A stretch of DNA of 64,000 nucleotides, from contig NZ_NBYY01000034.1 in NCBI RefSeq assembly GCF_002464935.1, positions 1 through 64,000 on the forward strand, written 5' to 3'. A program made the translations under genes and the position numbers. Shown piece after piece: positions 36,607 through 51,826 of this stretch. The stretch is from Candidatus Enterovibrio escicola (GTDB taxonomy: Bacteria; Pseudomonadota; Gammaproteobacteria; Enterobacterales; Vibrionaceae). Under the pieces are notes generated by a model, which was given only the letters and a program-made list of their open reading frames with translations, did no database searches and was not told the origin of the DNA. Positions within the stretch are counted from its first letter, which is position 1, and the number at the start of each line of letters is the position of its first letter.

Positions 36607-36787
36607 CAGTGAACTCCATTTTCCTAATAATATTAGTGCTGAAATAAGTGCTTAGTATATCGTGAAGTTAAAAAGAATATCCGTGATATAATCATGTATT
36701 CAATAAGTTGAATATGATTAAAAGATAATACTACCTTCAACGAAGCTACCGATTACTTTGTCGTGTATTGAGGTTTATTTTTAGTAT

Positions 36788-37559
36788 TCAATCGTTTCCG
36801 GAGTATCAGGCGGTTCCAAAGTTTCATCACTTTAAGTTTCATATTTTTGTCACCCTCGTTATCAGTGTCACTCCCTTGTCTGTAAGTTCCTGCTCCAATA
36901 GACTAGATATATAATATTTATTTCCGTATAAACACCCCAAAAGCTCATCAACTATTTCTGATACAAGCTTCCTATCATCCACGTTAACCTTCGTCACTTT
37001 GACTAAGATAATGCACCTTGGTCATTGATGATAAGGTGTAATTTGAAACCGTAAAACCACCCCATCGTTCCTTTTCTTCGCTTCGCGGTACCTTTCAAAA
37101 TCTGATATCAGAAAATACATAGGTTGTGACAAACCTGTTGCTTAGATGAATCAACAAAAGCAATCCCTGACGGTGAGTGAGGCAAGAGCAAAGCGGAACT
37201 AGAACACCTTTCATAAGCTTGAGCATCCTCATGTAGCTAACTAATTCAGGAAATTCGTTGGTGAGGTAGCCACAAACAAAGTGGATGTAATAGGTTTTGA
37301 AGTCTCGATACCCAGATTGATGAAAAGCTATCACTATAGTCATCACTTCGCTAACTGAGAGGCGAGAAGGTTTGTTTCTTTATTAGATACCGAGAGAAAT
37401 GAGATGTTTTTCCAATGCAAGGAGGAAAATCTTGCAACAGTTGACGAAAACAGCCTCTAAGTTATTCATGCCCAAGTCCTTGGGCAGTCAATAGTTTAAT
37501 TTCAAACGATCAGCTTGCAATTTTGGTATTTAGTTCATTTTTTATGCGCAGCTCAAGTT
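36788..37559 (-). mobile_element. IS982 element, right end missing, decayed
   Basis: On the minus strand the left repeat AACTTGAGCTGCGCATAAA begins at 37559. It is followed by most of the IS982 transposase in fragments (FHQSGYRDFKTYYIHFVCGYLTNEFPELVSYMRML, then the KRRKGTMG-like and YGNKYYI-like blocks). The right ~200 bases are absent. This is the IS982 copy on the lolB side of the inverted hemA-kdsA block. Confidence 0.87.
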
Positions 37560-37561
37560 AA

Positions 37562-37691
37562 TGAAGGGCTGGTAAATATGAAATTGAAAAATAAAGTTAT
37601 AAGACTCTATCTGCTTGTTCTCCTACAGAGAAATTAAGACTGCAAAAATATTTAGAGCAGCACGTTATAGACCTGATTTAATCAACAATGC
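37562..37691 (+). mobile_element. IS903-like 3' tail
   Basis: The plus strand resembles the last ~30 codons of the IS903-type transposase (EGLVNMKL..NKVIRLY) and its right terminus GATTTAATCAACAATGC. It directly follows the left end of the IS982 at 36788-37559. Confidence 0.72.
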
Positions 37692-38206
37692 TATCGAGAT
37701 TCCCAAGCATACCAGAGCCTTTTTGTTGCCTATGAAAGTAGGCTTACTCATCTACTTCGCAGATAATCCCCCCTGCCTGTACATCAAGATAGAATGTGAT
37801 TACACAGCGTGTATGTAAGTTTTATAAAACCAAGATAGCCTCATTAATACGAGGTACATAGTATTCAAAAGAGTCGCAGACTCTAGCATTATTCATAGTA
37901 AGTTCAACAAGTTACTCTTCTACCATCCGTCGGACAATCCATGTAGGTATATTCAAACTGGAAGGTTCGGCAACACGCTTATCAACGCTAGCAGCGTTGG
38001 TGTCCACCAGGGTCGATACCATGTATTCTAATTATTTTTGTCTGCTGGAAAAAATGATATTTAACATCAACGGTAGTTACAATTATCACCGTGCAAGATT
38101 GGGTATCTTACACAAAAACAACCCATTAAATACATGATATAAGGCTCTTAAATAAAAAACTGGCAATATCGATTGTTTGTTTTTCTAAAAAATTTAACAC
38201 TATCTC
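37692..38206. other. Intergenic region after kdsA, no gene seen
   Basis: 515 bases between the IS903-like tail and the kdsA stop. No frame here has recognisable homology. It is probably degraded flank of the rearranged block. Confidence 0.5.
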
Positions 38207-39058
38207 TCAGTCAATATCCAAATCTTCGAAGCTTTTAATTAAATCATCCAATTCCTTCATTTGCTTCAGGAACGGTTCTAGTTTATCTAGAGGCATTGCA
38301 GATAAACCATCACAACGAGCATTATCTGGATCAGGGTGTGCTTCAATGAACAAACCTGCAATTTTGGTGGCCAAACCCGCACGCGCAAGATTGAGTGTTT
38401 GCTCACGACGGCCTCCTGATATAGCATCCATTGGATTACGATATTGCAGTGAATGTGTTACGTCAAAGATGATTGGGCTGCCGTTACTCACCTTTTTCAT
38501 TACGTCAAATCCTAACATATCAACGACAAGATTATCGTAACCCATGCACGATCCACGTTCACATAAAATTATTTTATCATTACCACATTCACTAAACTTA
38601 TCAACGATATGACCTACCTGGCTTGGGCTCATGAACTGCGGTTTTTTCACATTGATCACTACACCAGTTTTAGCGATCGCTTCAATCAGGTCAGTCTGAC
38701 GTGCCAGAAATGCTGGTAATTGAATCACGTCAACTACTTCTGAAACCGGCCTTGCGTGCCAAATTTCATGGACGTCTGTGATTAACTTTACTCCAAATAT
38801 ATCTTTTAGTTCTTGGAATATTTTTAAACCTTCTTCCAAGCCTGGACCGCGATACGAATATACTGATGAGCGATTTGCTTTATCAAAAGACGCCTTAAAT
38901 ACATAAGGAATACCCAGTTTCTGCGTAACTTCTACATAATGCTCACAAATTATCATAGCCATGTCACGAGACTCCAATACATTCATTCCTGCAAAGAGAA
39001 CAAATGATTTTCCATTAGCAACTTGGATATCGCTAATCTGAACCGTTTTTTGTACCAT
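38207..39058 (-). CDS. kdsA: 3-deoxy-8-phosphooctulonate synthase
   Basis: Makes KDO-8-phosphate for the LPS inner core. It has 283 residues from the ATG at 39058 (a GTG one codon earlier is possible; AGGA lies about 9 bases upstream). Signatures: [47 protein letters not shown] and the AHPDPDNA motif. Ancestrally it ends the hemA-prfA-prmC-sirB2-sirB1-kdsA cluster; here 6.6 kb of IS debris separates it from sirB2. Confidence 0.97.
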
Positions 39059-49324: not shown

Positions 49325-50319
49325 TAAACAGGATCACCGACAGCACCAATATAAATTCGATCTGTGGACGTTACTTTATTTACCCGTCGTTTAAAATATG
49401 ACATTAGTTCCCTCACATCACGAACTAAGACAAGTATTCTTATTTAGAATTAAAAATACTATTTTGGAGTGATTTTTCTATAGCTAGAATCATAGGAAAA
49501 TTCCTAATTCTCGTTTCCTCGCTTGGCATTAGTTATACACCGAAACCATCTCAAAATGTATGTTTCAGCGCGAATTAGACGAATTCAACCTATGGATAAA
49601 ACAGTCGCCTACACATAATGCCTCAGTTCATTGAAAAACTAGGAGAGGCTGTCTAAATTAAAGTCCATTTTAAGGGTTAGCATTTGAATTTATTCAGACG
49701 TGATGTGTCTCCATTTATCACTTACCTTCAATAAATATATCCCTTTATTAGATACAATGCCGCAACCCTATGTATCCGTAGGATTATACTGCTCAATCAT
49801 TGATGATAAGATTGCACTTCTCCGCTTGAAAAATGAACTTCCCCGTAATATCTATTAAAATAACGTATATACTGAAATTAGGTCGGATGTACAGGTCATA
49901 ATTCGCATAAAATTCGACAATAGCACTATCCAAATAGTCACAAAAATCAACTGACCTCATTAATACAAACATTTTGGATTTTTCATTGAACGTTTCTTGG
50001 GGAATTATGTTTACTCCACGTAGAAAAAGATTCACGATTTAGTAATGCTATTATGCCCTGAATAAAAGGATACTAATGCTCTCCAAATTATCTCCGATAA
50101 TTAGACTGAGGTCAGAGAGAAATACCATTTTATGCGGTCAGGTATTCAATAGGTTATTGTGATATAAGTTCCTGAATGTAGATAATGACTGCATCACTTA
50201 TGTTCTAGCGTTAAAGAAGAAAACTCCCTGCCGAAAATGATACACTCTTCTCGCCAAAGGATCACGCAGAGCTACCGTAGTGTTCAAATAATATTTTGAT
50301 CACAGTTCTAGTGTCTTTT
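49325..50319. other. Upstream of hemA: ~1 kb with no gene
   Basis: About 995 bases with no recognisable coding sequence. An 80-codon open stretch on the minus strand (49793-50035) has no recognisable family and low-complexity AT-rich codons. The hemA promoter must lie near 49330-49450, within a T/A-rich stretch. Confidence 0.5.
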
Positions 50320-50530
50320 CAGAAAAATATTTCTTTCTGACTCTTTTGGTGTTAAACTACCCATTGTATGAGCGGAATCCGCTCCCACTGTAGTATACAG
50401 TGATGTAATTTGTCATTGTACGGTACACTTGAGTAAAATTATCACACCTTTTAGACAAAATACATTCTGTATTTAAACTTCTAAAGAATCTCTCAATAGA
50501 GCTATTATCCCAATAGCGATCCATGCCTTG
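50320..50530 (-). mobile_element. IS3-family integrase-domain relic
   Basis: The minus strand reads GMDRYWDNSSIERFFRSLNTECI...YRTMTNYITVYYSG..RSYNG, then after a one-base shift GSLTPKESE. This is the C-terminal catalytic part of an IS3-type OrfB, including the E of the DDE triad (SIERFF). The rest is missing. Confidence 0.82.
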
Positions 50531-50572
50531 CTATATTTGCTAACGACAAAGCAATTGTCAACCTTCCAAATT

Positions 50573-50862
50573 GGCATTGTTAATTAAATCAGGCCTATAA
50601 CGCACTGTTCCAAATATTATTTACCGTCTGAATGTGTCTGCTGGCGAACAGGCATATCGAATCTTATAACTTTGTTTATCACTTTCATATTTGCCAGTGC
50701 TTCACCCACTTGAACATTGAAATCACGAAGAGTGAGTTTAGGGATAAATAACTGCTTATAGCAAAACATTGCTGTCTCTGCTAATGAGTGTTTATGATAA
50801 GCCCTGTCCTTTTTATACTCCGCCAATTTATCTTCTTCTAATTCCTTTACCGCTTCCTTTTT
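50573..50862 (-). mobile_element. IS903-like 3' end
   Basis: The minus strand encodes the same ~85 residues as at 45290-45579 (MAEYKKDRAYHKHSLAETAMFCYKQLFIPKLTLRDFNVQVGEALANMKVINKVIRFDMPV). It ends at the terminus GGCATTGTTAATTAAATC (from 50573). It abuts the left end of IS982 at the same position as the mirror copy at 45289/45290. Confidence 0.9.
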
Positions 50863-51824
50863 AATCTGAGATTCGCATTAGAAATGAACTAAATTTCCAA
50901 GTCGAGATCTGATTGTTTAAAAAACTATTGCCTGCATACAAACTTGGACATGAATAACCTCGACGCTGTTTTCGTCGATGGCGTCGACTTCTGCCAGACT
51001 TTCCTCCCTGCATGGAAAAAATACCTCATTTCTTCCAGTGTCAAACAAAGACACAAACCTTCTCATCTCTCAGTTAGCAAAGTGAGGACGATAGTGATAG
51101 CTTTCCATCAATCGGGGTATCGAGACTTCAAAACTTATTACATCCACTTTGTTTGTCGCTACCTCACCAACGAATTTCATGAATTAGTTAGCCACACGAA
51201 GATGCTAAAGCTCATGCAACGTATTTTGGTTTCGCTTTGCTCTTGCCTTACTCACCGTCAGAAATTTCCCTCATTAATTCAACCAAGCTACAGGTTTGTT
51301 ACAACCTACGCATACTTAGATATCAGGTTCTTAAAGGCACCGAGAAGCGAGGAAAAGGAACGATGAGGTGGTTCTACAGCTTCAAATTGCACCTTATCAT
51401 CAATGAGTAAGGTGGCATTATCTCAGTCAAAGTGACGACAATTAACGTGGCTGATAGAAAACCTCTGTCGGAAATGGCTGACGAGCTTTTGAGGTGTATA
51501 TACGGAGACAAAGGTTATATCTATGGTCCATAGGAGCGGAAATTTGCAGACAAGAAAGTGACACTGATAACTGGTATGAAAAAGAATATGAAATCAAAAG
51601 TAAGGAAACTCTTGAACTGCCGGATGCTCCGGAAACGATTTATTATCGAAACTGTTTTTGACCAACTAAAAAACATATCCCAAATCGAGCATTCTCGGCA
51701 CCGTAGTTGTATCAACTTTATGGTCAACTGGCTGGCGGGACTATCGAGTATTCATTTCAACCAAAGAAGCCAAATATCAAGATAATTAGGCTTGATAGGC
51801 AAGCTCTTATGCAGATCTGAGGTT
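50863..51824 (+). mobile_element. IS982 element, full length but decayed
   Basis: The left repeat AATCTGAGATTCGCATTAG (50863) and the right repeat ending at 51824 enclose an IS982 transposase in three frames. Blocks: MDMNNLDAVFVDGVDFCQTFLPAWKK, FHQSGYRDFKTYYIHFVCRYLTNEFHELVSHTKML, YGDKGYIYGP-like, [60 protein letters not shown]. It is 962 bases. The right repeat ends two bases from the proA stop codon. It is the copy on the hemA side of the inverted block. Confidence 0.9.
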
Positions 51825-51826
51825 AA

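Follow-up and report, generated by a model that had tools for sequence, protein, structure and literature searches.

The block of genes from hemA to kdsA in a light-organ symbiont of a deep-sea anglerfish has been turned around relative to its ancestral neighbour lolB, probably through the pairing of inverted insertion sequence (IS) debris. The DNA analysed, called the window here, comprises the first 64,000 positions of contig C22 (199 kb) in genome G000, which counts 2,645,619 bases in 39 contigs. Hendry 2018 (PMC6020299) describes the organism, 'Ca. Enterovibrio escacola' MJ02, as the symbiont of Melanocetus johnsonii and its genome as a 39-contig draft. In the window, ychF, pth, prs, ispE, lolB, kdsA, sirB2, prmC, prfA and hemA are all on the minus strand, with kdsA first after lolB and the starts of lolB and hemA 12.7 kb apart; our gene map thus confirmed the order, strands and distance given in a preliminary description of the same DNA. 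This arrangement is a derived state, since it is found in none of the 35 relatives in which the lolB-hemA junction can be resolved.

The comparison set comprised 40 relatives, one of which, G004, is also an anglerfish symbiont. In all 35 that carry lolB and hemA on one contig the two genes are divergent, with a spacing below 1 kb in 30, of 1-3 kb in four and of 5.9 kb in one; the two genes are on different contigs in four others, and hemA was not found in the last. Coordinates were entered for 24 relatives; in all of these but G004 (23), kdsA follows downstream of hemA on the same strand, no more than 6 kb away. We took the ancestral order from four relatives spanning the whole region (G013, G016, G007 and G022): crl-proB-proA, then 14-19 kb including leuS, then lnt...ubiF and ychF-pth-prs-ispE-lolB, followed divergently by hemA-prfA-prmC-sirB2-kdsA, with sirB1 preceding kdsA in G013. 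Another gene, a piece of which forms our block N, lies 5-9 kb beyond kdsA in all eight relatives checked and is adjoined by tRNA-Pro genes in seven of them, the contig of G022 beginning there. The view that the whole hemA...kdsA set is flipped relative to lolB is borne out by the divergence in all 35 relatives, except that one gene of the set, sirB1, has been lost and is present only as a remnant.

The observed order starts with the genes from lnt to lolB (block L) arranged as in relatives, followed by kdsA...hemA in reverse (block K) and by proA-proB-crl, also in reverse (block P). Beyond these come the block N fragment with its tRNA-Pro gene, a divergent leuS, and a 10-kb segment whose place in G013 is between proA and leuS. 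Our block map, which covers 22.9-130.4 kb of the contig (108 kb), contains eleven blocks that read 8 -9 -6 10 7 -11 -3 2 1 -4 5 when numbered in G013 order, every ancestral adjacency between blocks being broken. As the other blocks are also rearranged, the flip is one of many: it is one of at least ten breakpoints on the contig. The flipped block retains its ancestral neighbour on the lolB side but not on the hemA side, where block P, itself inverted, sits between hemA and the block N fragment. The preliminary description had proposed that a single inversion gave exactly this order. A single inversion should have left hemA adjoining the old neighbourhood of kdsA, and proA-proB-crl intervenes instead, so this part of the proposal does not hold; the position of hemA beside proA counts against a single-step event and not against IS recombination as such.

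Both borders of the flipped block consist of IS debris. The main element, IS982, has a 969-bp consensus with terminal repeats, and one remnant retains a PF13612 transposase DDE domain; the family name rests on Hendry 2018 (PMC6020299), which counts 333 IS982 transposases in MJ02, and on the preliminary description rather than on an IS database. From lolB to kdsA, the left border runs through 172 bp of lolB upstream DNA, an IS982 remnant, an IS5-family fragment and about 500 bp; the right border runs from the hemA leader through about 1.1 kb, an IS5 fragment (consensus 683-973) and a full IS982 to the proA stop codon. The two IS982 copies are placed and oppositely oriented as in the first description of these borders; the left one is truncated and the right one full length. 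That description had mentioned neither the IS5-family pieces, which are likewise opposite in orientation, nor the fact that proA, the neighbour on the right, has itself been displaced. Across the mapped part of the contig, all 11 broken gene adjacencies contain IS982 and 9 of them an IS5-family element, whereas the counts among the 49 intact ones are 6 and 4 (Fisher p 3.6e-8 and p 2.3e-6, respectively); ten of the broken adjacencies change order or orientation and one is a colinear gap of more than 8 kb.

Could the IS copies be passengers that landed after the flip? IS982 is dense in this genome (956 kb contain 141 copies 300 bp or longer) and also occupies the six intact adjacencies just mentioned. 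We nevertheless consider this quite unlikely, given its presence in every broken adjacency of the mapped part and the fact that no resolvable relative has the flipped order without IS. Nothing at the junctions marks the IS copies as later insertions, although they may be. A misassembly through repeats, as might occur in a draft of 39 contigs, is very improbable: the right-border IS982 shares 84% identity with its best other matches, so copies are distinguishable, neither the window nor contig C22 contains any N, and coverage is 58x according to Hendry 2018 (PMC6020299).

The opposite orientation of the border copies is in itself uninformative, since IS982 orientation is random. Over 956 kb of G000 (contigs C5, C6, C31 and C22), consecutive copies are opposite in 70 of 137 cases (permutation p 0.46), so that an inverted pair at the borders amounts to a coin flip. 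On C22, IS982 copies 300 bp or longer alternate in orientation in 22 of 29 consecutive cases, which had suggested that material was lost between direct copies; this idea was abandoned when it failed on C5 (29/60), C6 (10/28) and C31 (9/20).

Exactly hemA-kdsA would be flipped if the IS982 copies at 36.8 kb and 50.9 kb recombined in one RecA-dependent crossover. We regard this as doubtful; it is a special case of the general IS-recombination account that we favour, and the probabilities of the two overlap. The copies are opposite and correctly placed and, apart from the reversal of K and the addition of P, blocks L, K and N still stand in their old order. Shortest reversal scenarios were sampled in two sets, with 193 and 232 completed runs; K alone was reversed in 82 and 121 of these, K and P together in 35 and 44, and P alone in 0 and 0, with a distance that ignores hurdles and assumes linear ends and with 107 and 68 of 300 runs dropped as incomplete. 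The IS982 copies at 36.8 and 58.4 kb are unlikely to have inverted K and P jointly: they lie in direct orientation to each other, and such a pair could not flip the two blocks. The idea that the border pair recombined draws on the derived flip and on borders made of IS debris, but is opposed by the chance-level orientation, by the lack of any tract common to the two copies, by the truncation of the left one and the mismatched flanks of the right one, and by a recA gene that is not found today; a further event would also be needed to bring proBA-crl to hemA.

Exchange is visible, judging from the IS sequences, between inverted repeats around hemA-sirB2 and not between the two IS982 copies named in the preliminary description. 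The right-border IS5 piece (50.6 kb) and a nested IS5 piece (45.3 kb), inverted relative to each other, bracket hemA-sirB2. By windows over consensus 683-840 they are 97-100% identical, where background medians are 71-83% and the maximum is 90%, and identity drops to 78% at consensus 901-960; overall they are 92% identical, while the other 38 of 40 scored matches do not exceed 86%. Among 30 fetched loci of this IS5 segment, the right-border piece and the internal nest are the only ones with an IS5/IS982 junction at base 683. The right-border IS982 and the nested internal IS982 have eight rare sites in common between 457 and 746, with windows at 92% (421-480) and 97% (541-600) and values otherwise near background; the left-border IS982 has two rare sites in common with each of these copies, which is nothing special. 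Flipping hemA-sirB2 by itself would not lead to the order seen here, since sirB2 is still colinear with kdsA.

Such near-identical tracts, which we infer to reflect recent exchange between copies, are concentrated in this genome in IS copies that are close together and mostly inverted. We defined a tract as 120 bp at 96.5% identity or more and nearby copies as those less than 10 kb apart. In the same 956 kb, tracts were borne by 14 of 154 nearby inverted element pairs, 4 of 140 nearby direct pairs and 14 of 14,270 other pairs (p = 5e-21 for inverted versus other and 0.03 for inverted versus direct, the latter test being weak). An annotation-free self-comparison with BLAST segments gave 26 of 178, 5 of 167 and 13 of 4,966, respectively (p = 1e-4 versus direct and 9e-30 versus other), although these counts are not independent, one trio on C31 supplying several pairs.

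Besides these two limits, several observations weigh against our interpretation. The left- and right-border IS982 copies are identical at background level only. Nearby direct pairs are also above background (4/140, p 2e-5 versus other pairs). A tract of 99% joins the internal IS982 to a copy in direct orientation at 56248-56542, a distance of 11 kb, and one of 96.7% joins the left-border IS982 to a copy on contig C31; exchange is therefore not confined to nearby inverted pairs. In G004, no segment pair reaches 96.5% identity (0 of 9,186 in 400 kb). Pairs above that genome's own 99th percentile number 2 of 267 inverted, 4 of 234 direct and 72 of 8,685 far, with one direct pair above 93%, and its IS copies are more diverged (median best window 0.79). 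As recA was not detected in G004 either, loss of recA alone does not produce the tract pattern. Lastly, an association of IS with breakpoints can also arise because the genome tolerates both at the same sites.

The RecA family (PF00154) had no match in G000 or G004; the remaining 23 of the 25 genomes searched all have it, as do 14 of 14 controls. A missed recA gene is possible, the assembly being an estimated 99.73% complete. Hendry 2018 (PMC6020299) reports that most repair and recombination genes have been lost, with three left in MJ02 and two in CC26 ('Ca. E. luxaltus') versus 11-12 in others; the term 'recA' does not occur in its main text. Since recA is not found today, RecA-type recombination could have acted only before its loss.

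Our favoured reading is that inverted IS debris paired and so flipped the hemA-kdsA block in this anglerfish symbiont lineage, either while IS982 and IS5 were inserting in a burst or afterwards. Counted in its favour are also the mismatched flanks of the right-border IS982: by manual count, IS5 adjoins one end only in 13 of the 20 full-length IS982 copies that have IS5 at one end or more, the right-border copy being among the 13. Pairing of inverted copies could have followed either of two routes: RecA-dependent recombination before recA was lost, or a RecA-independent process such as template switching at the fork between nearby inverted repeats. In E. coli, inverted repeats that lie near each other are known to exchange sequence without RecA. 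A tentative extension, possible but well short of probable, is that after recA loss such exchange between transposon remnants a few kb apart, preferably inverted, reshuffled essential blocks including hemA-kdsA, and may still flip hemA-sirB2.

Alternatively, transposase-driven events (intramolecular transposition, adjacent deletion) may have placed hemA-kdsA and proBA with no recombination between copies, which we judge unlikely. The right-border IS982 stops precisely with its terminal repeat, next to the proA stop codon, as an adjacent deletion would leave it; transposases must also once have been active, although all their genes are now pseudogenes according to Hendry 2018 (PMC6020299). Against this, the left copy is not joined at a terminus, and the mosaic IS5 and IS982 tracts suggest sequence exchange between copies. 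As to target duplications, a 7-bp one was seen by eye in 1 of the 13 IS982 copies of a first set that have both ends (L005), a scan gave no consistent signal, and overlaps of about 6-8 bp appear at IS5 sites for several copies in the IS5 map. At the borders, a crosswise comparison meets a left copy without its 3' end and a right copy with mismatched flanks.

The flip is probably neutral, since hemA keeps its conserved leader for about 90-100 bp upstream (75-77% identity) and the genes stay open. The lolB upstream DNA at 36607..36778 had no match to the lolB-hemA region of five relatives, while hemA controls matched in the same run. A tblastx search with six border pieces revealed no remnants of relatives' genes; two pieces were repeated and the positive control matched. 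Coordinates of all features are collected in Table 1.

Table 1. Genes, blocks and IS elements in and around the flipped block (window positions)
Feature	Position	Strand	Remarks
Block L: lnt-corC-ybeY-phoH-miaB, ubiF (plus), ychF-pth-prs-ispE-lolB	22855..36606	-	order and orientation as in relatives
ychF	32276-33367	-	
lolB	35983-36606	-	
lolB upstream DNA, 172 bp	36607..36778	.	adjoins left-border IS982 remnant
Left-border IS982 remnant	36779..37561	-	consensus 1-793 of 969; 3' end (last 176 bp) lost on lolB side
IS5-family fragment	37551..37689	+	consensus 831-970; abuts 5' end of left-border IS982
kdsA	38207..39061	-	first gene of flipped block
sirB1 remnant	39078..39381	-	
Diverged IS982 copy inside block	39402..40194	-	65% to consensus
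IS5 piece, left half of nested unit	41707..42025	+	consensus 373-689
IS982 3' end of nested unit	42026..42088	-	consensus 966-904
ISL3-type element inserted in nested IS982	42087..44367	+	terminal inverted repeats; split transposase open reading frames 43630-43956, 43996-44379
199-residue open reading frame	42407-43006		within ISL3-type element
Remainder of nested IS982	44367..45291	-	consensus 912-1
IS5 piece of nested unit	45289..45575	+	consensus 683-969
sirB2	45695-46078	-	
sirB2, prmC, prfA, hemA	45695..49324	-	rest of flipped block
hemA	48065-49324	-	
Right-border IS5 fragment	50573..50863	-	consensus 683-973; inverted partner of 45289-45575
Right-border IS982, full length	50861..51826	+	5' flank IS5 interior, 3' flank proA stop codon
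Block P: proA, proB, crl	51827..57070	-	inverted and moved versus relatives
IS982 between blocks P and N	58399..59373	-	direct orientation relative to left-border copy
Block N	59480..60570	+	gene piece, fragment of ancestral kdsA neighbourhood
tRNA-Pro gene	60472-60548		in block N

Inside the flipped block are a further three IS982 pieces, all on the minus strand, together with an ISL3-type element and an open reading frame. Between kdsA and sirB2 lies a nested unit in which IS982, itself carrying the ISL3-type element, separates IS5 positions 373-689 from 683-969; the overlap at 683-689 would fit a 7-bp target duplication whose letters have diverged. IS982-in-IS5 nesting is common: where IS982 ends abut IS5, the IS5 position is 819-831 at 14 of 31 5' ends and 18 of 33 3' ends (manual count; for example at 30970, 37551 and 55275). 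These junctions point to a preferred insertion site of IS982 at consensus 819-831 of the IS5-family element, seen from both IS982 ends. The 199-residue open reading frame in the ISL3-type element had no Pfam match and one weak PHROG match (E 0.002); it is 86.5% identical over 99% to a hypothetical protein of E. coli plasmid NZ_OY019090.1 and 57% to one from Shewanella.

Other parts of the region have also moved. Positions 1644-21883 (rnhB...rpsB, map, glnD, queF) are far from lnt-lolB in two relatives, the 2.0-20.1 kb segment and queF matching C38:3.17-3.19 Mb in G013 and C1:0.68-0.70 Mb in G016, which makes the queF/lnt junction at about 22 kb a further breakpoint. G004 breaks the region differently: hemA-prfA-prmC is on the plus strand with a reversed kdsA-sirB1-sirB2 fragment 10 kb away (G004:C1:187835-202646), and ychF...lolB is on another contig (C2:282464-286754). 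Relatives have a cluster of tRNA-Met, -Leu and -Gln genes near ychF (in the ubiF-ychF gap in G013); the corresponding gap in the window, 29830-32276, consists of IS debris, and the tRNA-Pro gene is the only tRNA gene found in the window.

The leuS gene beyond block N encodes a divergent, open leucyl-tRNA synthetase (LeuRS) of 809 residues (C22 62594-65020, the window containing 62591-64000). It is the only LeuRS match in G000 at E <= 1e-60, and a remnant of the C-terminal part of the native leuS persists at C22:75686-76084 (41% over 152 residues). All 40 relatives searched give a LeuRS match, 38-49% identical to this protein. With the 465-residue part in the window, 25 loci were found in a species collection, all titled Bacteroidota (mostly Flavobacteriaceae), with 30-50% identity in the best segment. 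From these comparisons, it looks as if an essential leucyl-tRNA synthetase has been replaced by a foreign enzyme.

A single flip of this kind is an ordinary IS-bounded rearrangement for such genomes. The tracts offer more: as IS copies otherwise differ by about 16%, they act as tracers, and a single genome without a detected recA can show over what distance, in which orientation and with what tract length recombination occurs. This makes it testable how gene order keeps changing in decaying symbionts that lack the standard recombination machinery. A search of open-licence papers brought up no account of dead IS copies exchanging sequence locally with a bias towards inverted pairs, nor, in papers naming Enterovibrio escacola, any mention of rearrangement, inversion or synteny. 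Hendry 2018 (PMC6020299) describes IS982/IS5 expansion and transposon-mediated reduction in Ca. Enterovibrio symbionts, but the words 'rearrange', 'inversion' and 'synteny' are absent from its main text. Homologous IS sequences within one bacterial genome have been described to recombine ectopically, giving IS inversions (PMC3004938); going by its title, that work concerns inversion of the IS itself via its terminal inverted repeats, whereas the tracts in G000 join separate nearby copies. Amoebophilus asiaticus (PMC3196728) is described as having, like our symbiont, many truncated and diverged IS copies, mostly without direct repeats, but no major recent rearrangement, gene conversion being largely ruled out as the main means of IS maintenance. 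The closest parallel is the weevil symbiont SOPE (PMC3914690), likewise a recent symbiont with massive IS expansion and loss of synteny, where most rearranged regions are reported to be bounded by IS elements, so that IS-bounded rearrangement in young symbionts is already known. The IS families of SOPE are given as more than 94% identical, whereas the copies in G000 are only about 84% alike, so that near-identical tracts stand out.

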